Positions 5,264 through 30,251 of a DNA stretch of 39,695 bases are shown piece by piece. Positions within the stretch are counted from its first letter, which is position 1. Every line of letters starts with the position of its first letter. Source of the stretch: Desulfurococcales archaeon. GTDB taxonomy: Archaea; Thermoproteota; Thermoprotei_A; Sulfolobales; Acidilobaceae. Below the pieces are notes generated by a model. The model saw only the letters and a list, made by a program, of their open reading frames with translations, was not told where the DNA came from and did not search any database. A program made the position numbers and the translations under genes. The DNA is taken from positions 1 through 39,695 of the forward strand of contig WAOT01000053.1 in NCBI GenBank assembly GCA_015521115.1, given 5' to 3'.

Positions 5264-5275
5264 ATAGGGAGAACC

Positions 5276-5284
5276 CTTAAAAAG
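5276..5284 (+). promoter_or_regulatory. Possible TATA box downstream of top6A
   Basis: CTTAAAAAG has TATA-box character and lies just after the top6A stop at 5263. A transcript beginning about 25 nt later would cover the small open frame at 5361. Evidence is by motif and spacing only. Confidence 0.3.
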
Positions 5285-5360
5285 CCCTGAGAACACTTTC
5301 AAATGACGGGGTCTGTTTGCGTCCTGGTAAGCGTACAGTCCCAGTAAGGGGGGGTCAAGT

Positions 5361-5489
5361 ATGTTCCCAGACATGGGAGGGGCGATCGAGATAAGAATCC
5401 ATAAGGAAAGTAGCAAATACACGAAGGAAGGACACATAGAGATACATTTAGAATTAGATGATAAACCACTATGGGCTGCTGCAGTATAA
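5361..5489 (+). CDS. Possible small protein of 42 residues
   Basis: An ATG at 5361 opens a 42-codon frame that ends with TAA at 5487-5489. The ATG is preceded by a run of seven G about 6 nt upstream, in a string AGGGGGGGTC that would make a strong ribosome binding site, and by a TATA-like element at 5276-5284. The predicted protein is charged, alternating Ile/Glu/His/Lys in its middle (IEIRIHKESSKY), with no membrane segment and no Cys. I recognise no family. It could be a real small protein at the border of the AT-rich insert, a remnant of a longer gene, or chance. It partly fills the 307-nt gap between top6A and the ATPase gene; nothing else is evident there. Confidence 0.35.
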   Translation: MFPDMGGAIEIRIHKESSKYTKEGHIEIHLELDDKPLWAAAV

Positions 5490-5548
5490 GTCAGTTCCTA
5501 TTCTCATATCTAGTCCATTAAATGACCCCCTAAAGAACTCTTTTGGAG

Positions 5549-5557
5549 TATACTATA
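5549..5557 (+). promoter_or_regulatory. Possible TATA box of the ATPase-Toprim pair
   Basis: TATACTATA lies 14-22 nt before the ATG at 5571. The distance from the box centre to the ATG is about 18 nt, slightly short for a leaderless start, so either transcription starts within the first codons or the true start is a little downstream. Confidence 0.35.
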
Positions 5558-5570
5558 ACTACTGAAGTGT

Positions 5571-6686: not shown

Positions 6687-6701
6687 AAGAGGGGAGTATC
6701 T

Positions 6702-7406
6702 ATGGGTAGAAGTGCTCTCCTAATCGGTGAAGGATGTCTTGACATTGCCCTCGGTAAGGCAATTATAAAGAGAACAAAGTGGAGTCTTGTAGACTACATC
6801 ATAGCAGGAGGAGGCTTAGAGCCAATCAAGCAGGCTATAAGTTTAGTCGACCAAATCTCCACGTCTATAACCCCTATAGTTTTTATTGATTCAGATAATA
6901 GAATATTAGAAAAAATAGATAATATTAAAGAAAATTTTAAGAATATAGAAGAAAGATATTATTATGATAAAATTATAGGTTTAGTAATAAAAAAGGGAAG
7001 CTCAAAAATTCTAGTACTCTTTTGGCATGATTACAGTGACACTACATATGATGAGTGCGGAAGAATAGAGTGCCTACTCCATAATGCAATGGTAAAAACA
7101 CTCTTTTGCGGGTCTGATCCAGTGTCAGATGCTCTATTCTCATCATTTAATTGTTATAAATGTCCTTCAAATAAAGTAAAAAGTCAAAAAATATACAGAA
7201 AATTAACCATTATTTCTGTGCTTGCCGCTTGTGCGGGGTACGGAACGTTAGCATCGCTACCCGAGTATTATGGTGGCCATAGCACTTCCCTCCTAAATCC
7301 TCTTTGCGGTTTGCCAGCATATAAAATTATTAATGGTTTAGACAATATATTTAGATATAATGATATAAAAAAATATATTGAATTTCTGTCTTCATGGAAC
7401 GATTAG
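6702..7406 (+). CDS. Toprim-like (DUF3226-type) protein paired with the ATPase
   Basis: A 234-residue protein. The N-terminus ALLIGEGCLDIALGKAI carries a Toprim-like glutamate (Glu10) and Asp14, and PIVFIDSDNRI at 58-68 gives the DxD motif (Asp63, Asp65). LVLFWHDYSD followed by GRIECLLHNAM (about 104-130) resembles the conserved W/PDN plus G-x-(L/I)-E element of DUF3226 proteins. This assignment is by eye. Several Cys residues occur at 136, 151 and 154, possibly structural. The start at 6702 follows GAGGGG with good spacing, and the gene is 15 nt after the ATPase gene, so the two are one operon. Composition is very AT-rich; 6901-6960 has only 8 G/C in 60 bases. Likely an effector nuclease, though metal binding and nuclease activity are inferred. 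The last 4 bases overlap the convergent DUF1641 gene. Confidence 0.65.
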   Translation: MGRSALLIGEGCLDIALGKAIIKRTKWSLVDYIIAGGGLEPIKQAISLVDQISTSITPIVFIDSDNRILEKIDNIKENFKNIEERYYYDKIIGLVIKKGSSKILVLFWHDYSDTTYDECGRIECLLHNAMVKTLFCGSDPVSDALFSSFNCYKCPSNKVKSQKIYRKLTIISVLAACAGYGTLASLPEYYGGHSTSLLNPLCGLPAYKIINGLDNIFRYNDIKKYIEFLSSWND

Positions 7407-7776: not shown

Positions 7777-8964
7777 CTACCACCCCCTCTCTCCTAGGAC
7801 TGCGGGGCTTGTTGCCTCGAAGTATGCTCGGAACACGGCCTGCCACTTCTCCGGGTATTTGAGGCTGCTCCAGTATGCTGCTATGAAGAGGTCTTCCATT
7901 AGCCTCTTCATCTTTGAGAACCTTACAGGGACTGGTGGGTGCTCGTAGTCGCTTATTACGAACGCCGCTTCACCATCAGCTACTACTGGGCAGTTGGTTC
8001 TCCCCGTAAACCTAGCTTCGAACCCCATGATCCTGTCCACGACCACCTCCGCTCCGAGGTGTGCCGTTACTCCCGTCTTGCTTGTGGGCGCGTTTGTGCA
8101 GTCTCCTATTGCGTAAGCGTCATCGTAGCCTTCTACCTGTAGGGTGTACTTGTTGACCTTGATGTAGCCGTCCTCGTCCACAGCGTTGGGGGGGTTAACC
8201 TCTATCCTTGGGCCGCCATGTACTGGTATGACTGTTGCGAGAGTGTACTCTATGCTCTCACCCTCAAGGCTGTTTATCACCTTATTCTCAACGTCTATGC
8301 TGTCAACGGTGAACATCGTCTTGACCTCAATGCCTGCCTCCCGCAGCTTGGGGCCTATGATCTTAGCCATAGTCTCACTAGCGTACTCGTGGATGAAGGG
8401 GAGGGCTAGCACTACCTTAACCTTCCCAAGCAGGCCCTTGCGGCGCAGGGTGTCAGCGGCTAGGAATGCCGCCTTGTGGGGCGCCGGGGGGCACTTGTAT
8501 AGTGGATCTGCTGCAGCAACCACTAGTGTACCCTCAGTGAGCTTGCTGAAGTGGCTCCAGAACTTTGCTGCGGCATCAGCTCCCCCGAAGTAGTCTCCAA
8601 TGGACTCGAACAGTTGCCTATGCCCTGGGACTGCGTCGTAGTCTAGGGATGCTCCGAGGGCCACGATTATCTTATCATAACTCAGGCTCCTCCCGTCACC
8701 TAATGTGACCTTCCTCTCCGCAAAGTCGACCTTCTCCACCACACCTTTGACCAGCTCGACGCCAGGCCTGACGAGATCCTCTACAGGTCTTAGATACCTC
8801 TCCGGCCTGTGCCCCTTGAACGCTATCCACAGCATCCCAGGCTGGAAGAGGTGGAAGTCGCTTTTCTCGACGATTGTTACCTTATAGCCGTGGTAGGCTA
8901 GCAGGTTAGCCGCCACTAGCCCTCCAGTCCCGGCCCCGAGCACCAGCACTCTCTCCTCTGGCAT
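7777..8964 (-). CDS. Sulfide:quinone oxidoreductase-type flavoprotein
   Basis: A 395-residue FAD-dependent oxidoreductase that probably oxidises sulfide (or a related reduced sulfur compound) and passes electrons to membrane quinone. The N-terminal FAD-binding motif is VLVLGAGTGGLVAA (residues 6-19), a second nucleotide-binding signature is IIVALGAS (99-106), and the C-terminal FAD contact is YAIGDC (284-289). Cys158 in YKCPP, Cys289 and Cys325 are present; SQRs use two or three redox cysteines, and Cys158 matches the conserved one. A hydrophobic and basic C-terminus (LFIAAYWSSLKYPEKW) fits monotopic membrane attachment. ATG 8964 follows GGAGGTG; an in-frame GTG at 8973 overlaps that site and is rejected. 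NADH dehydrogenase type II is a less likely alternative because of the cysteines and neighbours. Confidence 0.88.
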   Translation of the reverse strand: MPEERVLVLGAGTGGLVAANLLAYHGYKVTIVEKSDFHLFQPGMLWIAFKGHRPERYLRPVEDLVRPGVELVKGVVEKVDFAERKVTLGDGRSLSYDKIIVALGASLDYDAVPGHRQLFESIGDYFGGADAAAKFWSHFSKLTEGTLVVAAADPLYKCPPAPHKAAFLAADTLRRKGLLGKVKVVLALPFIHEYASETMAKIIGPKLREAGIEVKTMFTVDSIDVENKVINSLEGESIEYTLATVIPVHGGPRIEVNPPNAVDEDGYIKVNKYTLQVEGYDDAYAIGDCTNAPTSKTGVTAHLGAEVVVDRIMGFEARFTGRTNCPVVADGEAAFVISDYEHPPVPVRFSKMKRLMEDLFIAAYWSSLKYPEKWQAVFRAYFEATSPAVLGERGW

Positions 8965-9000
8965 GAGGTACACCTCCAGACTATACTCTCATTACTAACA

Positions 9001-9008
9001 ATAATATG
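9001..9008 (-). promoter_or_regulatory. Probable TATA box for the SQR-DUF1641 genes
   Basis: On the minus strand CATATTAT lies about 40 nt before the SQR start codon, giving a predicted transcript start near 8978 and a short leader containing GGAGGTG. It follows a T-run, so SQR and DUF1641 can be transcribed separately from dsrE-tusA. Confidence 0.4.
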
Positions 9009-9011
9009 GAG

Positions 9012-9017
9012 AAAAAA
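9012..9017 (-). terminator. T-run, possible terminator after tusA
   Basis: Six T residues on the minus strand, 52 nt after the tusA stop codon, with C/T-rich flanks. Archaeal termination often occurs at such T-rich sites without a strong hairpin. It separates dsrE-tusA from the SQR promoter. Confidence 0.35.
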
Positions 9018-9068
9018 GTGGGCTCCCATGAATTGGGGTCTTCTCTCGGGTTTTAGACCTTAGTTGGT

Positions 9069-9302
9069 CTACTTGGCTGTTACCTCTATGACGGCCTTTA
9101 TGACGTCGCCCTCCTTCTTGAGCTCTACTATCTTGTTACCTGTCCTCTCGGCCCAGGCCTTAACGTCGGGCTCGAAGCCCGGGTCTGTTGCGAGCACCTC
9201 TATTATGTCTCCCTTCTTAGCCTTCCTGTAGGCCCTTACTAGCTTCGTTATGGGGCCTGGGCATGCCATGCCCCTGGCGTCGACCACGATCTTCTCCGGC
9301 AT
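9069..9302 (-). CDS. tusA: TusA-type sulfurtransferase
   Basis: A 77-residue sulfur carrier. The hallmark CPxP motif is in GMACPGPITK with the active-site Cys14, followed by a typical two-layer alpha/beta pattern with KKGDIIEVLATDPG. TusA proteins hold sulfane sulfur as a cysteine persulfide; in sulfur-metabolising archaea they work with DsrE-type proteins and heterodisulfide reductase-like complexes, while elsewhere they serve tRNA thiolation or molybdenum cofactor synthesis. The neighbours DsrE and SQR support the sulfur-oxidation or sulfur-relay role. ATG 9302 follows GGGGGT and lies 12 nt after the dsrE-like gene, so the two share an mRNA. Confidence 0.92.
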   Translation of the reverse strand: MPEKIVVDARGMACPGPITKLVRAYRKAKKGDIIEVLATDPGFEPDVKAWAERTGNKIVELKKEGDVIKAVIEVTAK

Positions 9303-9314
9303 GCTCCTACCCCC

Positions 9315-9722
9315 TTAGATGAATATCACCTGGTAGTCAGCAGTCTGAGTCATGAAGTAGGTGGCGCCGACCATGTCGTCTACTATTGGGTCGAGATCCT
9401 CCTTCTTCACACCGGCGACCTCGGCCATCAGGCTGCAGACGTAGACCTTGACATCGCCAGCCTCCTTAGCCTCCTTAATTATCTCATACCAGCTGGGCAT
9501 ATTCAGCCTCTTCATGCCCTCCAAGATCTTGGGTGCGATGTCCTCGAACTCCTTAGTGAACCTGGGCTCAGGCTTCTGCTTTAGGAAGTAGAGCATTGCG
9601 TATCCGGTAACGAAGATCCTGACAGGTACGCCAAGGTTGGCCGCTGTCTGGGTAAGTACCGCGAGGGGGATGAACTTCTCCGCCTCCCCGCTGAACATCA
9701 CGATCGCGAGTCCCTTTGCCAT
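9315..9722 (-). CDS. DsrE/DsrF-like sulfur relay protein
   Basis: A 135-residue protein starting MAKGLAIVMFSGEAEK. The Rossmann-like pattern and YVCSLMAEVAGV near residue 95 fit the DsrE/F family, in which a cysteine at about this place carries persulfide sulfur. It is encoded directly before tusA, a common archaeal pair that relays sulfur. The start at 9722 is chosen because GGAGG precedes this ATG by about 8 nt; an in-frame start at 9803 would add 27 poorly conserved-looking residues and lacks a clear binding site. Upstream on the minus strand several TATA-like strings (for example near 9830) could drive it. Confidence 0.85.
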   Translation of the reverse strand: MAKGLAIVMFSGEAEKFIPLAVLTQTAANLGVPVRIFVTGYAMLYFLKQKPEPRFTKEFEDIAPKILEGMKRLNMPSWYEIIKEAKEAGDVKVYVCSLMAEVAGVKKEDLDPIVDDMVGATYFMTQTADYQVIFI

Positions 9723-9974
9723 TCCAGATCCTCCGGCCCGCACTCCACGGGCCGTGAAGTCATAGAGTTTGACGACGATGATATCTGTCAAATGTGCACA
9801 CATATAGACAAGAAAATATACTGGATATATCGAGATGGAGTAATACTTTACACTTCAAAAACTTAAATATGGGGGCTTTGAATCTAGGGGATGCCAATAT
9901 ATGTTCTACCTCGAAGAAAGTTTATGTTTACAAGCACTATACCATAATAAAATTGAACCTCGGAGGTGGGAGAA

Positions 9975-10280
9975 ATGCCGCTGTTCGTAGTCCTTTCAAA
10001 GCTAACCGATAAGGGGGCCGAGACCCTCTTCAAGAAGCCTGACCGCGTAAAGGAGGTCAACAAGGAGCTCGAGGACATGGGGGTAAAAGTCCTAGAACAG
10101 TACGTCATGCTGGGAGACTGGGACTTCCTAAACATTGTAGAGGCCGTAGATGAGAAGACCCTCCTAGCAGCCCTCACGAACCTAAACATGAGGGGCACCA
10201 TCAGGACGACCACATACAGGATAGTGCCTGTAGACGAGTTCATCAGTATATTGAAGGAGAAGAAAGTTGGTGAAGCCTAA
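9975..10280 (+). CDS. GYD domain-containing protein
   Basis: A 101-residue protein with a ferredoxin-like alpha/beta pattern. It opens MPLFVVLSKLTDKG, has VKVLEQYVMLGDWDFLNIVEA in the middle (GDWD in place of the family's GxYD), and ends VPVDEFISILKE; these are typical of the GYD family (PF08734), small proteins of unknown function. ATG 9975 follows GGAGGTG (9962-9968); the in-frame GTG at 9966 lies within that site and is rejected. Possible TATA elements lie at 9862-9869. It is transcribed away from the sulfur operon and converges with the phosphoribosyltransferase gene, with 14 nt between stops. Confidence 0.85.
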   Translation: MPLFVVLSKLTDKGAETLFKKPDRVKEVNKELEDMGVKVLEQYVMLGDWDFLNIVEAVDEKTLLAALTNLNMRGTIRTTTYRIVPVDEFISILKEKKVGEA

Positions 10281-10294
10281 CCTACCCAATGATA

Positions 10295-10954
10295 TCATAC
10301 TATTTTTACATTCGTTTTCCCTGAAACCCTCCTCAACGCCTCCTCCCAGTACCATCCAAGCTCTTCGGGCCTTATCCCGTACCACTCCTCAAAGGCGTTT
10401 TCCAGGTCAGACCGGGCTATCTCCTTCTTGCCCTTGAAGCGTTCATCCTCCCTTAGGATCCGCTGTATGAACTGCTGGGTGTCTTCAAGCCTCGTCCAGG
10501 GGTATTGGAACCATGTCCAGTCCTTCACTTCAATGTGGTAGTAGTCTGGTTTGAATTTCGCTACAGGGCTTATCCATTGTAGTACTGCTATCCTCACCTC
10601 ATCGGGCTCCCAGGCCTTCTTAATGTAATCCCTCGCGAGGAGAAGGGTCTCCCCCGTGTCTACAATATCGTCCACAATGAGGAGGCGTTTGCCCTTCATG
10701 TCAACCTTGTACGGGTATTTCAAGATGGCCCTCTCAGCAGCCTTAGCGGCCTCAACCCAGTGCTGGCTCTGTATGCTTAGGAGGTCGTTTATGTCTAGGA
10801 AGTCGCAAAGGAGCCTAGCAGGCACGTACCCGCCCCTGGCGACCGCCACTATTGCATCGGGCTTATAGCCGCTCTCCATGATCTTCTTGGCAAGCCCCCA
10901 GCTCCACTCTACAATCTCATCCCAGCTCACAAGTTTAACAGGAACCCTGGGCAT
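10295..10954 (-). CDS. Purine-type phosphoribosyltransferase
   Basis: A 219-residue type I phosphoribosyltransferase. The PRPP-binding loop is LLIVDDIVDTGETL (91-104), with VAVARGGYVPARLL (36-49) as the conserved N-terminal ARGG region. DYYHIEVKDWTWFQYPW further on resembles the C-terminal aromatic base-binding end of archaeal hypoxanthine/xanthine-guanine phosphoribosyltransferases. It would therefore convert a purine base plus PRPP to the nucleotide in salvage. It carries about 60 extra C-terminal residues beyond the W-x-x-FPW element. ATG 10954 is preferred to GTG 10960 because GGGGTG lies at a good distance from the former only. The base specificity cannot be read from sequence. Confidence 0.85.
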   Translation of the reverse strand: MPRVPVKLVSWDEIVEWSWGLAKKIMESGYKPDAIVAVARGGYVPARLLCDFLDINDLLSIQSQHWVEAAKAAERAILKYPYKVDMKGKRLLIVDDIVDTGETLLLARDYIKKAWEPDEVRIAVLQWISPVAKFKPDYYHIEVKDWTWFQYPWTRLEDTQQFIQRILREDERFKGKKEIARSDLENAFEEWYGIRPEELGWYWEEALRRVSGKTNVKIV

Positions 10955-11015
10955 CCCCACGACACCCCGCCCCCATAGGGCCGAGTGGAAGCTTGTGGGG
11001 TTCCTCCCCTTATAG

Positions 11016-12299
11016 TTATGGGGTTAACCAGGGGAGCTTATAGCCACGGGGTTGCCTGAGGAGGAATACTGTTACTTTGTCGCCCTTCTTCAACGGCCTG
11101 TCACCCGTCAGCGCTAGGCCGTCAGCCATTAGGAAGCCAACGTTAGCGCTGCTCTTCTGGTACCTCTTATCCAGGGGTATTGCTATGATCTTATCGTTCC
11201 TATACTCGAGCCTCACCTTTATAGGCCTAGGCCTCTTAGGCGTAATCTCTCCCTCAAGCTCTGCCTCGACAAGTGGGAGGGGTGGTGAAGGCCTCCTGAC
11301 ATTACCCATGTACTGGAGGAGCGGGTATACTAGCCTTATCATGGCGTGTAGCGCGCTTATGGGGTAGCCGCTAAGGCCTACTACAGGCTTGCCCTCCACT
11401 ACATAGGCGCTTGTAGGCTTCCCCCCTATCACGTATAACCCCCTGAAGACAAGCTCTCCCCCGAGCCTGTCCTGGAGCTGGTAGAAGAGGTCTATCCTGC
11501 TAGGCCCTGTCCCGCCAGTCACGAGCACAACATCGACTAGGGGTAGAACCCTCTCAATATGCCAGGCCACCGCCTCACGGTCGTCGGGGAGTAGCGTCTG
11601 CCCTATGACCTCCACCCATGGGGTATACCTCCTCATAAACCCCTCTATCACGTCCCCCGTGGTGGCGACAACCTTACCCTCAAGTATCTCCTTAGCGGTA
11701 AGGGCCGGCATGGAGGGGTAGATGAGCTCGTTGCCCGTGCTGACGATGGCGACCCTCACACTCCTGTACACGGGAACCTCCGTGACGGCCACCTCAAGGA
11801 GTCCCGCGACATCCTCCCATGTGAGCACGGTACCACTCTTGAGGAGAGTCATACCCTTCCTAACAATAGAGCCTGCACTGTCGAGGTAGCTACCGGGCGG
11901 GTAGTGTTCCTCCACAAGTATATGGTTATCGTCCAACCGCTTAACCTTCTCCTCGGGGACGACTGTATCAGCACCCTCAGGGATGTAACTCCCAGTTGTA
12001 ACATACGCGGCCTCCCCAGGCCCTATCCGAAGCCTAGGAGCACCGCCAATAAGCTCCTCGCCAACAACCCTCAACCTGCCAGGCGTGTCCTCACTCCTCA
12101 CAGCATAACCGTCATAGGCACTCCTAGCATAAGGCGGCCAGTCTACAGGGGCCCGCACATCCCTGGCCACAACAAGCCCAACAGCATCCCATACCGGTAC
12201 CTCGAACCACTCCCCCACAGGACGCACTCGGCCCTTGAGCTCCTCCAAGGCGATACTAACAGGGGTAAGCTCCTCTATGTACCTCGCACCCGACAACAC
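11016..12299 (-). CDS. moeA: Molybdopterin molybdenumtransferase MoeA
   Basis: A 427-residue MoeA, which inserts molybdate or tungstate into adenylylated molybdopterin, the last step of Mo/W cofactor synthesis. Seen: SAYDGYA at 60-66, TGSYIPEGADTVVPEE at 102-117, VSTGNE at 186-191, TGGTGPS at 261-267 (cofactor-binding) and GLSGYPISA at 308-316 in place of the usual GLPGNPVSA. The C-terminal beta-barrel domain IV is complete. The start is GTG 12299, with an adjacent in-frame TTG at 12296; no strong ribosome binding site is seen, and a leaderless start is possible. No mobA/moaA neighbours lie in the window. Hyperthermophilic archaea commonly use tungsten, so the metal may be W. Confidence 0.95.
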   Translation of the reverse strand: MLSGARYIEELTPVSIALEELKGRVRPVGEWFEVPVWDAVGLVVARDVRAPVDWPPYARSAYDGYAVRSEDTPGRLRVVGEELIGGAPRLRIGPGEAAYVTTGSYIPEGADTVVPEEKVKRLDDNHILVEEHYPPGSYLDSAGSIVRKGMTLLKSGTVLTWEDVAGLLEVAVTEVPVYRSVRVAIVSTGNELIYPSMPALTAKEILEGKVVATTGDVIEGFMRRYTPWVEVIGQTLLPDDREAVAWHIERVLPLVDVVLVTGGTGPSRIDLFYQLQDRLGGELVFRGLYVIGGKPTSAYVVEGKPVVGLSGYPISALHAMIRLVYPLLQYMGNVRRPSPPLPLVEAELEGEITPKRPRPIKVRLEYRNDKIIAIPLDKRYQKSSANVGFLMADGLALTGDRPLKKGDKVTVFLLRQPRGYKLPWLTP

Positions 12300-12364
12300 T
12301 GTTCACCGATCCAGACCGTGCACGTGGCAGTGCAATAAAAGCTGGGACACCCAACTATCTGCTA

Positions 12365-13192
12365 TTACTCCCTGTTTTCCATAACGGTGTAGATCAGCTC
12401 TGTCAACCATATTGGCGTGCCGCTCTCTATTCCTGTGGAGGCTACATCAACCTGCGACTTCTGCCCCGTATACTCGGCTAAGAGGTGGGCGAGCTCGTCG
12501 GCTACACCATGGGCTTTAGCGTCCCCAGGTTTGGTTAGAAGTGTTATGCTCAGAACCTCACCATCCTCTACTAGAATTGCTGGCCTACCCTCCACTACTC
12601 CTACAGTTACTGCGGCGCGATCCTTCAGGTGGGGTATAGTGTGGTTTACTATGTGTAGTATGATTGACGCTGTTACCGCATCAATTATCTTATCCACAGC
12701 CTTCAAGCCGCTATCAATTCTATCAATAATGACCTTATGACTCTCCTCCATAGTAGTGGAAAGGCTCCCAAGCTGCCGCTCAACCTTTTCGCTAACCTCG
12801 TCCCTTGTCTTGACAACCTCCTCACGTAGGACGCTCACGCCACTAGCTATCTCAGCCCTAGCCCTCTCGACCCTCTTAGAGAGATCCTGTATATCCCCCC
12901 TGAACTCCTCCAGCCAGCTCTCCTGCCTCTTAGCGGTAGCAGTTATCTCTTCGACAGCCTCTCTAACGGTCTTCCCCGTCTTGTGTAGTTCTCTTTCCAG
13001 GTCTCTTATAGCAGAGCTTATGGAACGGGTCAGGTCGGCTGTTGATAGCTGCTTCTCATAGACTTGGTTAAGCCTCTCCTGTAACGTGCTTATCTGCTTC
13101 CTAGCCTCCTCGAGGCCCCGCTCCACCTGGGCAATCCTATTATCAAGTTTTCTGACGAGTTGAAGTATCTCCTCAATCACAGGGTCAGCCAA
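12365..13192 (-). CDS. Coiled-coil protein of unknown function
   Basis: A 275-residue protein that I do not recognise. Residues 1 to about 170 are heptad-like, rich in Glu, Lys, Arg, Gln and Leu (for example VERGLEEARKQISTLQERL), and predict a long coiled coil. The remaining 100 residues form a mixed domain: a hydrophobic helix (DAVTASIILHIVNHTIPHL), beta strands VTVGVVEGRPAILVEDGE and a final WLTELIYTVMENRE. No signal peptide or clear membrane helix. The start is TTG 13192, preceded by GGTGTGGGGG. The domain plan (coiled coil plus small alpha/beta end) recalls archaeal DUF3782-like proteins, but no nuclease residues can be assigned. Confidence 0.75.
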   Translation of the reverse strand: MADPVIEEILQLVRKLDNRIAQVERGLEEARKQISTLQERLNQVYEKQLSTADLTRSISSAIRDLERELHKTGKTVREAVEEITATAKRQESWLEEFRGDIQDLSKRVERARAEIASGVSVLREEVVKTRDEVSEKVERQLGSLSTTMEESHKVIIDRIDSGLKAVDKIIDAVTASIILHIVNHTIPHLKDRAAVTVGVVEGRPAILVEDGEVLSITLLTKPGDAKAHGVADELAHLLAEYTGQKSQVDVASTGIESGTPIWLTELIYTVMENRE

Positions 13193-16770: not shown

Positions 16771-16817
16771 CCCGCATTATGGGATACTGGGAGACCCTGT
16801 GTTCGAAGATCTGCATA

Positions 16818-16831
16818 TACAATATAATACC
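16818..16831. promoter_or_regulatory. Shared TATA region between tmcA and the propeller-kinase gene
   Basis: CATATACAATATAA and its surroundings form the only AT-rich stretch in the 103-nt divergent gap. It could act as TATA box for both strands: about 45-55 nt from either start codon, leaving short leaders. The plus-strand gene has a GAGAGG ribosome site before its TTG. Confidence 0.4.
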
Positions 16832-16873
16832 ACTCCGCGGGGGGCCCGACCAAGTAGAGTGAGAGGATAAACG

Positions 16874-19537
16874 TTGAAAGAAGTAGGAGAGGCACTAAAA
16901 ACCCTTGTAAGGGTAGCACGGGAACTTACACTCGGAGACGTAACTAGCATCTCCTGGGATCCGAGCAGTTCCCGCTTCGCCGCCACAGGGACCTCAGGCC
17001 TAATAGCACTAATGGACAGGAGCGGGCTGCAAAAGCTTGTAGGGAAGGTCGGGCACGGGCCCACGTACAGCGTGTCATGGTCCCCCAGGGGCGACTTAGT
17101 GGCGGTAAGCACCGGGTGGGAAGGCAGAGTTGAAGCTGTGACCCTTGACGGGGAGGTGGCGTGGAGCAAAGCCTCCCTCGGAGGCAATGCGTCTAGCCTC
17201 GACTGGAATAATGACGGCTCCAGGCTTGTAGTAGCATTATCCTGGGGCTCATCCACGCAGACGCACGGGAGAGTTGTGATACTCGACAGTGATGGAGAGA
17301 CTATATGGGAGAGTGGTGACCTGGGGGAGAGGGGTAGGATAGCGAAATGGAGCCCTGACGGGGAACTAATAGCAGTTGGCACGTTGAAAGGGCTTAGCAG
17401 GGGGTCGCTGATTGTATTTGACAGGCGGGGTAGGGTAAAGGCATGGACGACCCTTAAAGGCCAGGCGATGGACATAGAGTGGTCTCCTGACTCCAGCACA
17501 ATATATGTTGCACAGGCTTGGGAGGATAGAGAGGGCGTTAGAGGAGGCCGGATAACCCTTCACAAGCCCACGGGAGAACAGATCTCCCCCACAAGGGAAA
17601 CCAGTGGGTGGTCCCTTAGCCTCTCATTCAACCGTCAAAAAGGCATTCTAGCAGTTGGCATGGACGAAGGACTCCGACTCTACACCCCTGACCTCAGATA
17701 CCACATACCTGCAGGCAGTACCGGCATTGTACACTCTCTCTCTTGGTCGCCGGATGGAGAATACCTAGCGGTAGGTGAGGGCGTCGAAGTGGCAGTCTAC
17801 AAGGCCTCCGGCACTACCGAGGTTAAGTTTAAGTCGGGGATTATGAAGTCGGAGAGAGTGACCTTCCCACTCATCGAGAAAGCATGGGGTTGGAGCGGTT
17901 TAAGGGCGTGCGGGGAATACGATATCATATGGCCCACCATCAGGGGGAGCACCCCGATCTCGACCCTTAACAGGGCAGTGAGGCAATGGTCGGAGGGCGT
18001 CTGCCGCGATATAGCCCTGACACTCCTCGGAAGAGAGCCCAAGGAGGACTACTGGGGTATACTAGAGCTCGTGAAGAAAGCACTCTGGATTAACGCTATC
18101 TCCAAGCTCGGAGAGCTAGCGGAAGGCTGGAACCCTAAAGAGCCCCTCGAGTTACAAGCACTCTCAAGGCTCCTCACATTCGGTCTCTGGGATGATATGA
18201 GAGCGCTAGAGTCGAAAGTCTCAGACCTCGGAGCCGCCCCAGAGCTATACTATGCCTGGCTGGCCACCGAGATCTCAGCGCTAAACGGCCTTGGCCTGAC
18301 AGCCGTGTCGGGGGCGCTGCAACAGGTTCTTGCATCGCTAGAGAGGAAAATCTACACAATAATAGATAAGGGATATCAGAAGATCGCAAGGTCGATCCTC
18401 TCAAGGCTCTCCACAGAGCATGCACATCTATTAGCGAAGGTATTCCAGGACATAGCTGATAGCATACCACAACCCATCGTCCAGTGGGGAGAGAAAGGGA
18501 TATGTAATGAGAAGCCGTATCCTGTTGATGTCATAGTCGACGGGGACAAGCTCACCCTACAGCCCGGCTCATGCACCCACGCCCGGGAGGAGGTGACGAT
18601 GTTAGACCCTCTAAGAGGTCAGCGGCCCCTCACAAACCCCCACACAATTGACAAGACGGAGCATAGGTCGTGGTGGGACGACCTACGCCCCATAGAGTAT
18701 CGAGGCCCCGCGTTCAGGCCTCCTCAGGGAATACCCTCGCTTGGAGAAGCCTGTGTACCGTTGGGTTGTGGTAGTTGGAGCTGCTCCTACAGGTGTGGGA
18801 CGACTGTCGCCCGGGTGCCCCGCCATATATCGGAACATTTCGAGGAGGGGGATCTGGTTAGTGCGTCACCGATTGTGATGAGTAAGCTTATCGAAGAGGT
18901 TGAGAGGTATAGGGCCGTGGAGAGCAGCCACCTAATGGCAATAATAGACCTACACTATTCCACTCCGATAATAGTATACAAGTTCGCCCCCCACGGGAGC
19001 CTCGCCTACCAGTTAGAGACGGGGTGGGCTCCAGGATGGAGAGTAATAGCCGAGGTCGCACTACACGTAGCGAGAGCTCTTAAAGCACTACATTCCCATA
19101 GTTTAGTGCACGGGGATGTTAGGCCTAGCAATATCCTCTTACTTGACCGGAGGGCGGTTCTCGCAGACCCTGCCCCAATCGTCGAGTTAGCGCTGCTAGC
19201 GTCTAGGGGGCAGATGCAGCCTCTCCCCGGCTGGAGGGCCCCCGAGCAGGTCTATAGCGATCTAAGGCGGGAGACTATTAGGAAAGCTGTAGAGGACAGG
19301 GCTGACATGTACATGTTAGGCAACACCATCCTCTACGCGCTAACGGGAGACCTTGTTGACGGTGAGGAGGCGGTCAGCAGGTCACTCGTTGCAGAGGCTA
19401 CCAGTAGGATTGAGGAGCCACGCCTTGTCGCTCTGGTAGAGGCCCTGTTAAGGCCTAAGCCTTGGGAGAGGCCTTCAGCCTCCCAGGCGATCTTGGCCCT
19501 TGAAAGGCTCCTCACCCCTGGGGAGACCGTGGAGTGA
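16874..19537 (+). CDS. Seven-bladed beta-propeller protein with C-terminal degenerate Ser/Thr kinase domain
   Basis: An 887-residue soluble protein. Residues 20-320 contain seven WD40-like repeats with the WSPDG signature (SWDPSSS, SWSPRGD, DWNNDGS, KWSPDGE, EWSPDSS, SFNRQKG, SWSPDGE), which predicts one complete propeller. A helical region follows. The C-terminal third is kinase-like: a loop GCGSWSCSY at 631-639, Arg647 in place of the ATP-binding Lys, VHGDVRPSN at 745-753 as the catalytic loop (HGD for HRD, with Asp748 and Asn753 kept), DPA at 765-767 for DFG, and WRAPE at 787-791. Loss of Lys suggests a pseudokinase or an unusual kinase. TTG 16874 follows GAGAGG. It stands next to pyr genes but fits better with the MoxR/DUF58 locus further on. 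The last 63 nt overlap a convergent gene. Confidence 0.85.
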   Translation: MKEVGEALKTLVRVARELTLGDVTSISWDPSSSRFAATGTSGLIALMDRSGLQKLVGKVGHGPTYSVSWSPRGDLVAVSTGWEGRVEAVTLDGEVAWSKASLGGNASSLDWNNDGSRLVVALSWGSSTQTHGRVVILDSDGETIWESGDLGERGRIAKWSPDGELIAVGTLKGLSRGSLIVFDRRGRVKAWTTLKGQAMDIEWSPDSSTIYVAQAWEDREGVRGGRITLHKPTGEQISPTRETSGWSLSLSFNRQKGILAVGMDEGLRLYTPDLRYHIPAGSTGIVHSLSWSPDGEYLAVGEGVEVAVYKASGTTEVKFKSGIMKSERVTFPLIEKAWGWSGLRACGEYDIIWPTIRGSTPISTLNRAVRQWSEGVCRDIALTLLGREPKEDYWGILELVKKALWINAISKLGELAEGWNPKEPLELQALSRLLTFGLWDDMRALESKVSDLGAAPELYYAWLATEISALNGLGLTAVSGALQQVLASLERKIYTIIDKGYQKIARSILSRLSTEHAHLLAKVFQDIADSIPQPIVQWGEKGICNEKPYPVDVIVDGDKLTLQPGSCTHAREEVTMLDPLRGQRPLTNPHTIDKTEHRSWWDDLRPIEYRGPAFRPPQGIPSLGEACVPLGCGSWSCSYRCGTTVARVPRHISEHFEEGDLVSASPIVMSKLIEEVERYRAVESSHLMAIIDLHYSTPIIVYKFAPHGSLAYQLETGWAPGWRVIAEVALHVARALKALHSHSLVHGDVRPSNILLLDRRAVLADPAPIVELALLASRGQMQPLPGWRAPEQVYSDLRRETIRKAVEDRADMYMLGNTILYALTGDLVDGEEAVSRSLVAEATSRIEEPRLVALVEALLRPKPWERPSASQAILALERLLTPGETVE

Positions 19538-22876: not shown

Positions 22877-25800
22877 TTGTCTGAGCCCCTAGAGATCCGC
22901 GTTCAACCTGACCTGAGAGAGGAGGTGATCCTAGACAAGAGTACTGTCGAAGCAGACTTGGGAAACGTGGGGCTGAGACTACTATACAACTGTGGGAAGA
23001 GGCTCGGGAAATGCGCCCGAGACTTCATCCTGGAAGCAAGCATGGAGGCCCCCCACGGTGAGCCGGTAATATATGCTGAAGTTAAGAGGGCTGAGGGGAA
23101 GCTGAAGGCCTCCGCTAAGGACGCCTTCGTCACCGTATCGGTGGCAGGGGGCAAGGGTAAGGGTGTCGCAGACATCGTTTTCCGCTTTGCAGTGGACATA
23201 GAACCGGGTAGGGAGGGAGACTGGACGTACACCCTCAGGATAGAGCGCAAGGATCCAAGGAGCGGGGCGAGGTGGACGATAGCAGGCCCCTACACGGTGA
23301 GGCTCCGCAGACTCGAGCTAGTACGTGGGCTCAAAATGAAGGTATACCCCTCGACAAGACTGTACGTGGGGGACAACTTCAAGGTTATAACGGTATTCGA
23401 CCTGGCCGTTAAAACAAAGTATAGGGCCTCACTCAGCTACTCAGACCACAGGAAAGTTTGGGAGGGTGAGGGTAAGGGTACAATCGAGCTTGAAGAAGAG
23501 CTAGTGGCGGAGAAAACAGGCAAACTGATCTTTACTGTAGAAATCCCAGAGTTTGGCTATAGGAAGACTGTTGTAGAGGAGATCGAAGTCCTACAGCCAC
23601 CAAGACTCAAGGCAACCCTCGGAGACTTAGAGGGGGAGGCCAGACTCGGGGAGGAGCCAGTCCTACCCCTAACCCTTGAAAACAATAGCCCCTCCACGAC
23701 CGTCAAAGCCAAGGTTGAGGGCACGATCTACTCCTACCCCATAAAATCCGGTATAGAAGTCCCCCCAGGAAAGAGCGTGAGCCACGACCTAACTCCAGGC
23801 CCTCTAGGAGTAGAGGCATTAGAGAACCCAAAGGCCCTGATCGTGATCGTTGAAGAGCCCGGCGGTTTTGAGCAGAAGATCGAGAAACCCCTGCCGAAGC
23901 CTGGAGCCCCGAAGGTCGAGATCAGTTTAGAGCCTAAGAAAGCCAATATAAGGTCTGACGGTGAAGCATCGTTCAGCATAGTCCTCCTCAACAAGACTGG
24001 GAGACAGCTGACCCTCAGCCTTAAGGAGGCGTCCGCTACGAGGGGGAGTGTGGAGCCACTGCTAAAGCAGGCCAAAGCGCCGCCGGGTGGGGAGGCTAAA
24101 GTTAAGCTCCACTATAAACCGAGGGAGGTAGGCTCTGACAGGCTGAGGGTGTACGCCGAAGTCTTCGCACCCCCGGATAGGAGAGTGTTAGAGTTCGAGG
24201 ATTACGCCGAAATAGAGGTAACACCCTCGTTCCACGTGAAGGGATACGAGGTCTCGGGCCTGAAAGAGCCCTACATCCTGCCCGGGGAGAGCGTGACAAT
24301 AGCCCTAGAACTAGATGCATATGGCGAATCCCCCATACAGCTCGAGCTAAGAAGCCCCCACCTCATCCTGGAGAAGAACAAGCACACTATATACCCCGGG
24401 AGGAACAGGCTAGAGCTCAAGGTCACCGCAGGCCCTGTGGAGACCGACGTTGAGGGTGTCGTATTAGAGGTTACGGATAGAGTCCATAGCGAGAGAGTGG
24501 AGCTACCACTAATCCTCGGCCCACCGAAGCTTGAGGCCATGGCCAGGCCTGTCAAAGCGTATGGGGGCCTACTAACAGGAGTTCCCATAACGGTTCGGAG
24601 CCACAACGCTAGCCCTCTAAAAGCCGTCGTAAAGGCACGGGCAACAGAGAAGGTTAGACCGGCAGAAGGGAGTGTCTCCGTCGAGATCCCGCCCTATGGA
24701 GAGTCTAGCGCAGTCATCCACATCATTGGACTGCGGGAGGGCAGAGAGGATCTTGAGGTCTACGTGGAAGCAGCCCACGGTTCTAGCAGGAGGGCTCAAA
24801 AGGTAATTGTACCGGTCGAGATCCGAAACCCACTAGAGGTCTCCGTGACAAAGGCCCCCGAAATCATATACCTACCACACCCTATGACACCCCTCTTAGA
24901 GAAGGAATCAAACCTCTATACTATTAAAATGACTCTAAGGAATGCTAGCGACAAGGAGATACCCAGGGTCGAGGTGAACGTCATCCCAATCCAAGGCCCA
25001 CCTATTAATTGTAGGCCCAGGGTAATTGAGAAACTACCCTCAAAGGCCTCTCGGGAAATTGAGTGCCGCCTAGAGATCCCGCACACCTATGAGAAGATGC
25101 TCGTAGAAGAGGAGTACCAGTTCACAATAAACGGGTTCCAAGTTAGGGGCCACCTAGTTAGGGCGCCGGTAGAGAGGGTTAACTATATCATAGCATTCTA
25201 TAACCCCCCAGGCCTAAGGGGGGACTGCCCATACCCTGCTAGGAGCAAACCCCCCACAGCAGCCCTCATACCGGTCACAGTAGATCCACGCATATGCGGG
25301 CCAAACCCGACAAAGTGGAGCCTTAACCTGCACAGGCTACTCGACACGATCTCGGGCGTGATTATGAAGAGCAGTAGCAGCCACTGGCAGGCTGCCCTGG
25401 CCCGCTACCTCCTGGTGAGTGCTAGGACGGGGAGTAGCTGGGAAGCCTCGAAAGCTAGGGAGGAGCTCCTCGATGCTCTGAAGGGTATGAAGACTAGGGT
25501 CGGAGACGCAATAGTGGTGCCTGGGGAGATATGGAAAGCCGCAATCCTAAAGGTGTTAGGAGCAGGATATGGAGAGCACCTGTCCAAGGTCAGAGAGCTG
25601 GGGGCGAGACTATTCTCATCCCCGGCCAGTCCGAGCCGCCTCGTGTCAAAGGGTGTAAACGAAATAATAATAGCAGCAGTAATAGGTGAAGAGAACCGTC
25701 TCGAGACCACAGTAAAAGAGAGGCCTAGTGAGTCAATGAGACCCCTCCTACTCGCACACCATATGATACATGGGTGGGAGGCACCATACAAGGGTGGAAT

Positions 25801-26050
25801 CGCCCACCAGCTCATGCACGACAGGCTCAAGAACCTCATATATCACGCAGTATCCAAAACAGACTGGATACGCGACGAGGAGAGCCTCGCAGCACTAGCA
25901 GGGCTAGCAGAAACGCTGAAGGTAGGGGCACTAGGCTACGAGCTAGTGGCCGCCGCTATAATTTACTCGAAGACGGTCAGCGCCGTCCTCAGAATAATAG
26001 AGTCCCTTCATAGCGAAACACCAGAACAAGCGGGTCTAAACGGCCCCTAA
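22877..26050 (+). CDS. Very large multi-beta-sandwich protein without signal peptide
   Basis: A 1057-residue protein. Residues 1 to about 790 are a chain of beta-rich domains of 90-130 residues with the look of Ig-like/CARDB folds: strand pairs ending in ...VEEIEVLQPPRL, ...DYAEIEVTPSF, ...QKVIVPVEIRNPLEV, and linkers with Pro and Gly (VPPGKSVSH, APPGGEAKV). About five to seven such domains can be counted. The last 250 residues are helical (HWQAALARYLLVSARTG, ESLAALAGLAETLKVG). There is no signal peptide and no membrane helix, so it is probably cytoplasmic, unusual for this fold. TTG 22877 follows GGTGTAGGA. It opens the envelope/MoxR locus, 45 nt after pyrC; family not recognised. Confidence 0.75.
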   Translation: MSEPLEIRVQPDLREEVILDKSTVEADLGNVGLRLLYNCGKRLGKCARDFILEASMEAPHGEPVIYAEVKRAEGKLKASAKDAFVTVSVAGGKGKGVADIVFRFAVDIEPGREGDWTYTLRIERKDPRSGARWTIAGPYTVRLRRLELVRGLKMKVYPSTRLYVGDNFKVITVFDLAVKTKYRASLSYSDHRKVWEGEGKGTIELEEELVAEKTGKLIFTVEIPEFGYRKTVVEEIEVLQPPRLKATLGDLEGEARLGEEPVLPLTLENNSPSTTVKAKVEGTIYSYPIKSGIEVPPGKSVSHDLTPGPLGVEALENPKALIVIVEEPGGFEQKIEKPLPKPGAPKVEISLEPKKANIRSDGEASFSIVLLNKTGRQLTLSLKEASATRGSVEPLLKQAKAPPGGEAKVKLHYKPREVGSDRLRVYAEVFAPPDRRVLEFEDYAEIEVTPSFHVKGYEVSGLKEPYILPGESVTIALELDAYGESPIQLELRSPHLILEKNKHTIYPGRNRLELKVTAGPVETDVEGVVLEVTDRVHSERVELPLILGPPKLEAMARPVKAYGGLLTGVPITVRSHNASPLKAVVKARATEKVRPAEGSVSVEIPPYGESSAVIHIIGLREGREDLEVYVEAAHGSSRRAQKVIVPVEIRNPLEVSVTKAPEIIYLPHPMTPLLEKESNLYTIKMTLRNASDKEIPRVEVNVIPIQGPPINCRPRVIEKLPSKASREIECRLEIPHTYEKMLVEEEYQFTINGFQVRGHLVRAPVERVNYIIAFYNPPGLRGDCPYPARSKPPTAALIPVTVDPRICGPNPTKWSLNLHRLLDTISGVIMKSSSSHWQAALARYLLVSARTGSSWEASKAREELLDALKGMKTRVGDAIVVPGEIWKAAILKVLGAGYGEHLSKVRELGARLFSSPASPSRLVSKGVNEIIIAAVIGEENRLETTVKERPSESMRPLLLAHHMIHGWEAPYKGGIAHQLMHDRLKNLIYHAVSKTDWIRDEESLAALAGLAETLKVGALGYELVAAAIIYSKTVSAVLRIIESLHSETPEQAGLNGP

Positions 26051-26065
26051 CATCCCGTGAGCAAA

Positions 26066-26096
26066 TTTTTTCTGTACCCGAGTCTCATTTTCTTTT
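26066..26096 (+). terminator. T-rich terminator region
   Basis: A run of six T (26066-26071) and a second T-rich string TTTTCTTTT (26088-26096) lie between the stop at 26050 and the next start at 26117. Such tracts are enough for archaeal termination, so the genes on either side may be separate transcripts. Confidence 0.4.
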
Positions 26097-26116
26097 CAGG
26101 GTAAAGGGCGGAAAAC

Positions 26117-28867
26117 ATGAGGACATCTAGATTACACGGGAGGCTAGTTGTAATAGCTGTCCTAGCCCTCATAGCTCTTCAACCGCTAGCCGCGACCCCA
26201 TCCTCTGCAGACTTGGCTGGAAGGCTTTACATGCTACTGCAACGGTATGCTAGTACAACTGCTCTATTATCGTTCGAGGACGTGGCCTCAGTCTACTCCG
26301 AGATCTCTGCATGTGCAGGCTCTAATCTAAGCACAACAGCTACAGTGATCTCGACCCGACTAACTGAGCTCTCAAATGGTATAGACATTGACATCGTAAG
26401 TTTAAACAACGAGTTGAGGATATTCTTAATACAAGCGGCTAGGCACCCCCAGATATTGTCGCAGTGCGACCCTGAAACAGTACATACCGCCTTAATTCTG
26501 TCAGCATATGGCCGTGTCATTCCGGAGGGGGTCGCGCTAGCGCTGCAGCCAAACTGGAGTGAGGGGGCAGTTTTCTCGGCATACGCTAGAGGCCTCTACG
26601 AATACCTCCACTATGGTCACGGTCTGACGCTCCCGACAGGGTTCAACACTATCATTATGAACTATTCCGCCCAGCTAGCCTCAATAAGCCCGAACGCCTT
26701 CCTAGCGCTAATAATATTGACCGGAAACCCTTCCGCACTAGAAGGGCTAAACCTCACCACGCAAGACCTGTTGCCCTCTCTATCATACCTAGCTAGAGAC
26801 CAGTTCTACACGGCGCTGAACCTCTCAGGGCTTACACGGGAGCTCTTCAGCCCCGCAAATATAACAGCCCTAATGATAGGGGGCCACACAATACTTGACA
26901 GGGCAGTAGGCTTCAACGCATTCCGAAACCTATACCCGGAGAGGTACATTCTCTGGGAAACACTATACAAGTCGAGGCACCAGACCAGTGGAAACTGTGA
27001 CATTGAAGTGGGGGGCGTGGATCTCTCCCCTCCACTACGTGAAGGCCAGATAAACTACCTACACCCGGATTGTCCGGTTCCCGGTGTTAGAGACGAGTTG
27101 AAGGAAATCCCGGCCCTCGTGGTAGAAATAGAGCAGTCAGTATATATCGACTATAGGCTGAAGAATGCCCTAGACTACTATCTCGGACTACTCATCAGGG
27201 TTCCCGGCGACTACGCGGCATGGCGAATCGTTGCAGGCCTTTCACAGGCTTTAGCCTGGGAGGTAGTGAACAACCAGAGTGCACCTCCCGAGGTGAAAGG
27301 ATCCGCTATCGACCTGCTCTACACCATAATGGAGGTCAACCCCCTAGCCCCCATAAACCCACAGCTTCTCCTCCAGTCCATGGAGGCTGTAAACGTCTCG
27401 CTACCCCCTGACCTGCAAGCCCTAATCGAGGAGGGCAACTACTCAGCGGCACTCAATGAGGCCTTAACTGAAGCTGTGGGCGGGGGTGCAGGCGCCCTCC
27501 AAGCGGCTGCCCTCGCCCTCTCCATATTTAATAGCAGGGACAGTCTACTCCCCCAGGAGGGTGCGACACTGCCTCCAGGCCAAGTAGACTTTACAGAGGC
27601 CCTTGCCAACGCGACCAGCCTACTCCCTCAGAACGCTACAGCCGCGGCCCAGATACTCAGAGGGGCCAGCCTGACGGTCGGTGAAGGCGGTATACCGGCA
27701 GTGGATACAAACATGCTTGAGGCCCTCTCAGCCGCAGCAGCCTATAACGCAGTCTACTCTGGCCAAGCAACATCCTCGCAGGTCTCTGAACTCTACCAGA
27801 ACCTCCCTGAACTCGCTCAGAGGTCGGCCCCATCAGGTGTGATGCCCTCCCCTGTGGTCTTACAGAATTTAATTAATAATATTACAAGCAACAGCGGCTG
27901 GACAACTGATACTCCGGCGGCGAGGATCATGCAGGCCTACATAGACTCCGGAGGAAACAACCCTGCCCTCGGCGACCTTGCGAGATTAATGCTGGAGAGC
28001 TACACCACAGGCCCAGAAGGCCAGCCGTCCTTTATAGGAGGCGAGATCTCTAAGAGTGTAACCCCGACTACACTGGAAGGCTTCATCAACAGGATCACGG
28101 GCCCGCAGACACTGCCCGGGGCACCTTCGGCCTCACCCTCTTCCCCTCCAGTATCCATAAACGTGAGCGGGGGAGTCGAAGACCTGGCCAAGCTAATAGA
28201 GGACTTAGCTTCACAGAATGAGAGTGGAGCCCTGAAGGCTGCCGAGATATTGAAGAACATGGACGAGGACACAAGGGAGAAGATCCTTGAAACCATCTCA
28301 AAAGACGACCCAGAGCTAGCAAACAGCTTAGAGAACACGCTAAAAGAAATAACTGGAAAGACGGGTGCCAACCCACCCAAAATTGCTAGCCCGTCAATCC
28401 ACCTAGGCAGCCCAAAGCTTAGCGCACCTGAACTGGGAGGCACCACCATCAATAGCGGTAGTGTCCTCCCGTTGGCGGCCCTCCTCGGGCTTGTGGCCGT
28501 CGCAGCCTTCCTAATGCTTGGAGGCGGGGGCGTGAATAGGGTAAAGCTTAGCTCGAGGAGGAGGAAGCTAGAGGCCCAGCTCCAAGCGTTGAAGGGTAGA
28601 GGGTTAGACCTTGAGGCCTCAGACGTTGTCGCTCTCTATGAGAGAATGCTCGCCCTTCTAGCGGTTCTTAGGAGGCCTAAGATGCCCAGCGAGACACACC
28701 GGGAGTATCAGAGGGCGCTGGAAGGTGTGGAGGCCGAGATCCACGGGCGTGCAATGATTATATATGAGAAGGCTAAATTCAGTAGAATTAAGCCTACAAG
28801 AGAGGAGGCGGAGCTAATGCTTAACCTGGCCAAGAGGCTACTGGAACTCTCAAGGAGGGGGGCATAG
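26117..28867 (+). CDS. Secreted, membrane-anchored protein with cytoplasmic DUF4129-like tail
   Basis: A 916-residue protein. The N-terminus has an Arg-rich start, a hydrophobic stretch LVVIAVLALIALQPLAATPSSA, and so a signal peptide. The large outer region (about 30-780) is rich in Ala, Leu, Asn and Ser, with many N-x-S/T sites, and ends in a Pro/Ser/Gly-rich linker. One membrane helix lies at about 784-806 (LPLAALLGLVAVAAFLML), followed by basic residues and a helical cytoplasmic tail with MPSETHREYQRAL and a final LMLNLAKRLLELSRRGA, resembling the DUF4129 end of proteins found with MoxR and DUF58 genes. ATG 26117 has AAGGGCGG upstream. The next gene starts 4 nt after its stop. Confidence 0.8.
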   Translation: MRTSRLHGRLVVIAVLALIALQPLAATPSSADLAGRLYMLLQRYASTTALLSFEDVASVYSEISACAGSNLSTTATVISTRLTELSNGIDIDIVSLNNELRIFLIQAARHPQILSQCDPETVHTALILSAYGRVIPEGVALALQPNWSEGAVFSAYARGLYEYLHYGHGLTLPTGFNTIIMNYSAQLASISPNAFLALIILTGNPSALEGLNLTTQDLLPSLSYLARDQFYTALNLSGLTRELFSPANITALMIGGHTILDRAVGFNAFRNLYPERYILWETLYKSRHQTSGNCDIEVGGVDLSPPLREGQINYLHPDCPVPGVRDELKEIPALVVEIEQSVYIDYRLKNALDYYLGLLIRVPGDYAAWRIVAGLSQALAWEVVNNQSAPPEVKGSAIDLLYTIMEVNPLAPINPQLLLQSMEAVNVSLPPDLQALIEEGNYSAALNEALTEAVGGGAGALQAAALALSIFNSRDSLLPQEGATLPPGQVDFTEALANATSLLPQNATAAAQILRGASLTVGEGGIPAVDTNMLEALSAAAAYNAVYSGQATSSQVSELYQNLPELAQRSAPSGVMPSPVVLQNLINNITSNSGWTTDTPAARIMQAYIDSGGNNPALGDLARLMLESYTTGPEGQPSFIGGEISKSVTPTTLEGFINRITGPQTLPGAPSASPSSPPVSINVSGGVEDLAKLIEDLASQNESGALKAAEILKNMDEDTREKILETISKDDPELANSLENTLKEITGKTGANPPKIASPSIHLGSPKLSAPELGGTTINSGSVLPLAALLGLVAVAAFLMLGGGGVNRVKLSSRRRKLEAQLQALKGRGLDLEASDVVALYERMLALLAVLRRPKMPSETHREYQRALEGVEAEIHGRAMIIYEKAKFSRIKPTREEAELMLNLAKRLLELSRRGA

Positions 28868-28871
28868 CGAA

Positions 28872-30251
28872 GTGAAGTCTGAGCTACTCCTATTCACCGT
28901 CGTTGCAATACTAGTGGTACTATTGAGCCTCCTATCAAGCCCGCCAATCGAGATCAAGGCTAGCGTCGGATCCCAGTACTACACATATGTGATGGGCCCA
29001 TACGATAACAGCTCTCTCGGACATAGTACCGTCTACAGCCTGGTCGAGTCTATGGGTTACAATATCACAACCGACCCCACAGATAGTTACGACGGAGTCC
29101 TAATACTCTACACGCCGAGGACAGACTACGAGGCGGCATCACAAATAGTCAGTTTAACCTTGAAGTCGAGGAAACACTATGTGATCCTTGCAGGACACGG
29201 CGCCCTTATCAGCGCAGTAGAATACGGCCTTGGCATACCGATAGCCCGTGCCCCTTATATCCCAGCAGGGACTTACCTCGTCGTAGACAACAAGGGGGTC
29301 TCATGGTTTGACGTCTTGAACATGTCAGAAAAGCTACCCCGCCCCGGCGGAGGGGGATACGAAGTTTTGGCCTACACCTACCCAGGATATGAACCGATAG
29401 CAATAGCGATGACCAGCCGCGATGGAGTGAGGCTTGTTGCCTTCCTAGAAGGCTATGACAAGCGCGGGGGAGTGTTTAGCAATTATGCGCTTCATGAGGC
29501 TCTAAAGCTTAACATGACCCCTACCAGGTTCCTCCAGACCCTCCTAGATGCGGCGGGGGCAGAGAAGGGTGATACACTGCTAGTGCCTGGGGACGGGATA
29601 GCCTTCAAGAGGGTGCCTGTACGCGGGGCGGAGCCTGTAACGCTCGCGAGGATCGATGTTAGGCATGAAGCGGCCGACTTTGTAGAGAGGCTCCTGGGCT
29701 GGGAAAAGGGTGTTACAAGGTATGCGGGGCCGGGTACCCTTCTAGCGCTCGCCCTCTTCTCACCCCTCATAGCGTATGCATCAATAAAGAGCGCGCAAAA
29801 GGCACTCGCCAGCCGGAGGGGCTCTGACGAGCCATTGGAGTCCCATGAGGCCCAGCCCGTCCTCGGGTTCAGCCACCTATACCTTGAGGTGCGTGATATT
29901 GTAGAGGAGGGGGGCAAGCTTACAAAGGAAAAGGCTAAGCAGTTGATAAGAAGCCTCTACCTCGTAACCTCAGACCTGCTAGAGAGGGAGCTGGGCCTTA
30001 GTATAGAGCAGGTCTTGGCTAGGAGGGACGAGCTCGAGTCCCTCTCAACGATCTCTGGCATACCCGTGGATAGGCTTGAGTGGCTCCTGCGGAGGCTCCT
30101 CCTAGTCTACAGGAGGAAGGTCGAGGCAGGCAAGGTCTTTCCCCTAGTGAACCTGAGGAAAGAGGCCCTCCGCCTCTATGAGGGGCTCACACCCCTAGTG
30201 GAGGCCCTAGGGTTTAAGGTCGTAGGTAGGAGGGGAGCGGAGTATGTCTAG
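28872..30251 (+). CDS. DUF4350-like membrane protein
   Basis: A 459-residue protein with an N-terminal membrane helix ([17 protein letters not shown]), an outer alpha/beta domain (about 25-280, with [31 protein letters not shown], like the N-terminal glutamine-amidotransferase-like fold of DUF4350 proteins), a second helix at about 284-305, and a cytoplasmic helical tail. DUF4350 genes typically sit beside MoxR and DUF58 genes, as here. The GTG start at 28872 follows the previous stop by 4 nt, and the end overlaps the MoxR gene by 8 nt, so it is in one operon. It has no enzyme motif I can name. Confidence 0.7.

Follow-up and report, generated by a model that had tools for sequence, protein, structure and literature searches.

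The window, by which we mean the whole 39,695-nucleotide stretch analysed here (contig WAOT01000053.1 of a Desulfurococcales archaeon), carries, between a divergent tmcA and pyrBI, a gene whose product joins a β-propeller, a helical linker and a kinase fold (Table 1). That this 887-residue frame is a real gene is borne out by its coding-like composition: log-odds per codon are +0.12 in frame against −0.35 in the other frames, and codon usage resembles that of tmcA and pyrC. An opposite-strand open reading frame at 16777-17499 has codon usage that is not coding-like. The pyrB of the contig is 74% identical to pyrB of same-genus genomes, which makes mis-binning unlikely. In the six relatives whose pyrB surroundings were examined, no such propeller-kinase gene lies beside pyrB, so that the context gives neither function nor partner for the protein. 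About 10 kb away, behind pyrBIC, stands a run of MoxR, DUF58 and DUF4129 genes (22877-33732), which also encodes large proteins of 1057, 459 and 382 residues without Pfam matches.

Table 1 Features of the propeller-kinase gene and its product (positions in the window)
Feature	Positions	Strand	Basis or remark
TATA-like AT-rich stretch 5' of the start	16814-16831	+	By eye; putative promoter element, weak
Whole gene: propeller, helical linker, kinase fold	16874-19537	+	887 aa, TTG start
Seven-bladed WD40-type β-propeller, residues 17-320	16922-17833	+	AlphaFold strands, Foldseek, Pfam WD40-type models
Helical linker, residues 321-535	17834-18478	+	AlphaFold helices, low confidence; alignment to the C29 paralogue
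Short Cys-containing β unit, residues about 536-585 (ICNEKPYPVDVIVDGDKLTLQPGSC)	18479-18628	+	C29 alignment; hairpin in model
Kinase fold, residues 625-881	18746-19516	+	AlphaFold model, Foldseek, Pfam
Glycine loop GCGSWSC (631-637): Gly634 and Gly636 to Ser; Cys632 and Cys637 kept	18764-18784	+	Family alignment
Arg647 replacing the β3 (VAIK) lysine	18812-18814	+	Family alignment
Catalytic loop HGDVRPSN (746-753): Asp748 and Asn753 kept; Arg750 against family Lys	19109-19132	+	
DPA (765-767) against family DFS; metal-binding Asp765 kept	19166-19174	+	
Leu784 against the P+1-loop Thr of the family (TPGWRAPE)	19223-19225	+	

Domain architecture of the protein

The N-terminal region is a propeller of seven four-stranded WD40-type blades, modelled by AlphaFold in the full-length protein as a confident all-β fold (residues 23-320), covered by WD40-type propeller models of Pfam (residues 19-315) and matched by Foldseek to seven-bladed WD40 structures (7bie, E 3e-17; PkwA 5yzv, E 9e-15). 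Its blade-motif aromatics (Trp28, Trp69, Trp111, Trp159, Trp203, Phe251 and Trp291) are spaced 40-48 residues apart. Of the seven WSPDG-type repeats initially described, the seven blades stand, whereas the literal motif occurs in only two, the others reading WDPSS, WSPRG, WNNDG, WSPDS and FNRQK. WD40-type propellers are typically protein-binding modules. The helical linker that had been proposed is present in the model as low-confidence helices to about residue 535; together with the small Cys-containing β unit it aligns only to a paralogue encoded on contig C29 of this genome (here called C29), and neither element was found beyond that protein when 48 genomes of the same family were searched.

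The kinase fold on which the initial annotation had staked its reading is recovered by structure prediction: the model of the kinase alone, calculated with 28 family members as input, has a pLDDT of 94.5, and Foldseek returns PDB kinases including STK10, PknB and BRAF (E about 1e-11 to 2e-11). With the Pfam Pkinase match to residues 670-872 (E 1.8e-11, above its cut-off), these results identify a eukaryotic-like (Hanks-type) protein kinase fold. The residue-level motif calls were also correct (Arg647, HGD at 746-748, Asn753, Asp765-Pro-Ala), and all three members of the suggested metal-nucleotide set, Asp748, Asn753 and Asp765, are kept, as are α-C Glu675, APE Glu791, Asp811 and Arg866. With Arg647 in place of lysine, the protein does not have the full set of β3 Lys, catalytic Asp and metal-binding Asp of an active kinase; on the β3 lysine alone, it is predicted to be a pseudokinase under the definition of these as lacking at least one of the β3 Lys, HRD Asp and DFG Asp (PMC12599244). 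The only lysines of its N-lobe are residues 671 (helix C) and 703 (hinge), so that no WNK-type substitute is visible on β2. The largest Kyte-Doolittle mean over 19 residues is 1.15, with no hydrophobic segment anywhere in the chain; the protein is thus not a membrane receptor kinase, with signal peptide and a transmembrane segment between sensor and kinase, and should be soluble.

A Thermoproteota kinase family and its receptor-like members

Searches of related genomes and GTDB contigs recovered about 40 members of what is here called the LGCGGWGC kinase family, in MAGs labelled Acidilobaceae, Aeropyrum, Pyrodictiaceae, Staphylothermus, Thermosphaera and Desulfurococcales; other parts of the phylum hold further, more remote members. 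We define the family by a profile match, the P-loop cysteines 632 and 637, and the motifs PEQVYSDLR and D-x-Y-x-LGN; its consensus runs through LGCGGWGCAY, VVFKVPRG, HGDVKPGNIF, KLGDFSSL, TPGWRAPEQVYSDLR and ENRIDVYQLGN. The protein, itself one of the sequences behind the family profile, scores 341 bits on it and keeps Cys632, Cys637, Asp811, Leu815, Gly816 and Asn817. Because HGD, like a third DFG position other than Gly, is normal in this family, neither is in itself a sign of degeneracy, as both had initially been taken to be; within the DFG motif, only Phe-to-Pro and Ser-to-Ala are particular to this protein.

Cys632 and Cys637 are retained in nearly all members having that glycine loop, and persist here although two glycines of the same loop are gone. 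A second pair, Cys627 and Cys641 (window 18752-18796), predicted to lie opposite each other across the β1-β2 hairpin, tends to co-occur or be jointly absent (Fisher test, p 1e-5); since the non-Cys members belong mostly to one clade, representing few independent events, and some alignment rows are mis-registered or truncated, this covariation is kept as a lead only. A structural or redox role for the cysteines is possible. Two family kinases in relatives (L075 5746-6797, in G016:C18, and G024:C85:62023-62805) carry an in-frame stop and are apparent pseudogenes.

Propeller-kinase fusions, at first considered rare in archaea, are common in this lineage: propellers occur in four of this genome's six Pkinase-domain proteins and in about ten relatives. 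In several relatives an N-terminal hydrophobic segment precedes an ectodomain (propeller, PKD or PEGA) and a second hydrophobic segment lies just before the kinase; by a simple hydropathy scan, this topology reads as that of single-pass receptor kinases. Receptor-like kinases such as those of L053, L056, L057 and L067 share the kinase family and, in most cases, the propeller with the protein studied here, from which they differ in having two hydrophobic segments and, in some, PKD or PEGA domains, whereas it has no transmembrane segment. A Staphylothermus MAG (L053) encodes two receptor-like family kinases (2905-6822 and 8692-10917), both with PKD, which in one of them is joined by propeller and PEGA domains, and in L033 a 1255-residue peptidase of the C25 (gingipain-type) family (9292-13059) adjoins the propeller-kinase paralogue C58. 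Sulfolobus kinases with transmembrane domains (PMC5682000) and bacterial WD40-kinase fusions (PMC5587647) are known; a literature search for archaeal WD40-kinase fusions gave no direct match. Defence-system profiles matched the protein through generic kinase similarity only (mad6, for example, at 53 bits), and none of 119 pattern matches in viral contigs encodes a relative.

Probable divergence from an intact paralogue

The closest full-length relative is C29, a protein of 1008 aa that matches residues 9-881 with E 3e-60. It shares the propeller-linker-kinase order and a linker found nowhere else, but has an intact set of kinase motifs (GCGGWGC, VVKVP, HGDVKAGN and GDFS). A kinase-only tree fails to place the protein, which has a long branch, and does not group it with C29, a grouping that is nevertheless not rejected (AU p 0.27). 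We infer a lineage-specific duplication followed by fast divergence of one copy; the ancestor that was copied would have had propeller, linker and kinase in one chain, with the intact C29 paralogue as the likeliest candidate.

Conservation among the other 27 aligned members reaches 90% or more at 58 positions; the protein departs at 18 of these, compared with 0-8 for each of those relatives scored against the rest and three each for the own-genome paralogues C29 and C58, which lie outside the 27-member alignment. The departures (G634S, G636S, K647R, P662V, L682V, H684S, S694H, E703K, R737K, Y738A, R742H, G743S, K750R, K762V, G764A, S767A, T784L and G805A) take in the β3 lysine, two P-loop glycines, the hinge Glu, the catalytic-loop Lys and the P+1 Thr, and turn DFS into DPA. 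Judged by this alignment, the degeneracy that is specific to the protein consists of Arg647, the Ser-substituted P-loop, Arg750, Pro766/Ala767, Leu784 and Lys703. Its terminal branch measures 2.8-3.2 substitutions per site, about seven times the median of 0.40-0.46, with the reading frame intact. No orthologue carrying Arg647 and DPA was found among 214 genomes of the order, 229 of the class and 398 sampled from the phylum, where the motifs of the most distant matches were read for a few only; conservation of the losses can thus not be shown.

Possible function and alternative readings

Because key catalytic residues lost here are kept in sister proteins of the same genome, its role is probably to regulate or scaffold signalling, not to phosphorylate, which would resemble what "dead" kinases do in animals and plants. 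With little more than even confidence, we read it as a soluble archaeal pseudokinase, a non-catalytic and possibly nucleotide-binding regulator or scaffold, and infer its inactivity, nucleotide binding, partner and direction of regulation as follows. Having lost the β3 lysine and other residues that support catalysis, it should have little or no phosphorylating activity, as had been anticipated; its kinase domain keeps the fold and the metal and nucleotide residues Asp748, Asn753, Asp765 and α-C Glu675, with Asp765 and Asn753 possibly binding a nucleotide. The propeller would be the docking surface for a protein, and the kinase fold, responsive to nucleotide, would bind and regulate an active relative, as scaffold or allosteric partner. 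C29 would be the first candidate for that relative, a partnership that is possible but has the odds against it.

Several known systems bear comparison. Human STRADα, which has Arg100 at the β3 lysine site, binds ATP, is inactive and activates LKB1; like the archaeal protein, it combines Arg for the VAIK lysine and a lost P-loop glycine with a retained kinase fold (PMC2686265), but it lacks a propeller and is also without the HRD Asp, Asn and DFG, whereas Asp748, Asn753 and Asp765 are kept here. The same Lys-to-Arg change is found in KSR1, EphB6 and the bacterial ActPs2 and DYD families (PMC12599244), of which the latter two resemble our protein in bearing it on a prokaryotic Ser/Thr-kinase fold and differ in being bacterial, with other motif losses. 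PkwA of Thermomonospora curvata, also bacterial, likewise combines a kinase domain and a seven-bladed WD40 propeller in a single polypeptide, and its propeller ranks with the best structural matches. The order of its domains is the reverse, with the kinase first. Animal and plant pseudokinases have been studied in depth and bacterial ones have recently been catalogued; a literature search found no worked archaeal example.

The pseudokinase reading is favoured by the kinase fold, the 18 departures from 58 conserved positions, a long branch with an unbroken frame, the linker shared with C29 and the β3 Lys-to-Arg precedents. Against it stand the lack of an orthologue among the genomes searched, a kinase-only tree without C29 pairing, a gene neighbourhood that indicates no partner, and the retention of Asp748, Asn753 and Asp765 together, which with 40 of 58 positions kept has about a one-in-three chance and is not by itself significant. 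Many pseudokinases do not retain the whole Asp/Asn/Asp trio.

That retention speaks for the chief rival, in which the protein is active and its active site has been rebuilt: Arg647 and Arg750 would replace the two phosphate-contacting lysines while Asp748 and Asp765 catalyse as usual. Both lysine changes are conservative, Asn753, Glu675 and APE Glu791 are kept as well, and Arg can fill the role of PKA Lys168 in tyrosine kinases, from a position two residues downstream (PMC4718504). We nonetheless hold this rival to be unlikely: the P-loop glycines, hinge Glu703, P+1 Thr784 and the DFx Phe have changed too, β2 offers no visible WNK-type lysine, and an intact Gly-rich loop with VAIK is described as the best predictor of activity to date (PMC4718504).

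The loss of two P-loop glycines, the β3 Lys and the hinge Glu, beside a WD40-type propeller, would also suit a scaffold that binds no nucleotide, its kinase fold being only a protein-binding module next to the propeller. We think this quite unlikely, given that metal-binding Asp765, Asn753 and Asp748 remain and that some β3 Lys-to-Arg pseudokinases still bind ATP (PMC12599244). Very improbable is a duplicate that is decaying into a pseudogene, for which the very long branch, the lost catalytic residues and the in-frame stops of other family members in relatives might speak: some 3 substitutions per site have left no stop or frameshift, codon usage is like that of neighbouring genes, and the kinase and propeller folds are confident, with fold-determining residues kept. 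Partnership with the downstream MoxR-DUF58 system, raised in the initial annotation, is hardly credible, even though that system lies in the same window and its MoxR also scores against bpMoxR (far below AAA_3), as pyrBI and an amidohydrolase gene intervene, synteny is not conserved in the six relatives, and the propeller gene is not in an operon with MoxR and vWA genes as in the MoxR-vWA-propeller ternary system.

An apparently dead member together with intact paralogues of the same architecture in one genome makes the use of kinase/pseudokinase pairs by archaea directly testable. The family context points to Thermoproteota receptor-like kinases with exchangeable ectodomains. A fuller picture, of receptor-like kinases with exchangeable propeller, PKD or PEGA sensors and a Cys-bearing glycine loop, plus a lineage-specific pseudokinase that allosterically partners an active twin, as pseudokinases pair with active kinases in animals, is conjectural and rather doubtful.

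Elsewhere in the window, a topoisomerase VI subunit A gene (3332-5263) encodes an intein-type splicing domain (residues 302-515) within its Toprim domain, and an AAA_21 ATPase (5571-6686) resembles AriA/AbiLi-type defence ATPases. A same-genus genome encodes an RtcB with an intein bearing a LAGLIDADG domain (L036 233-3133).
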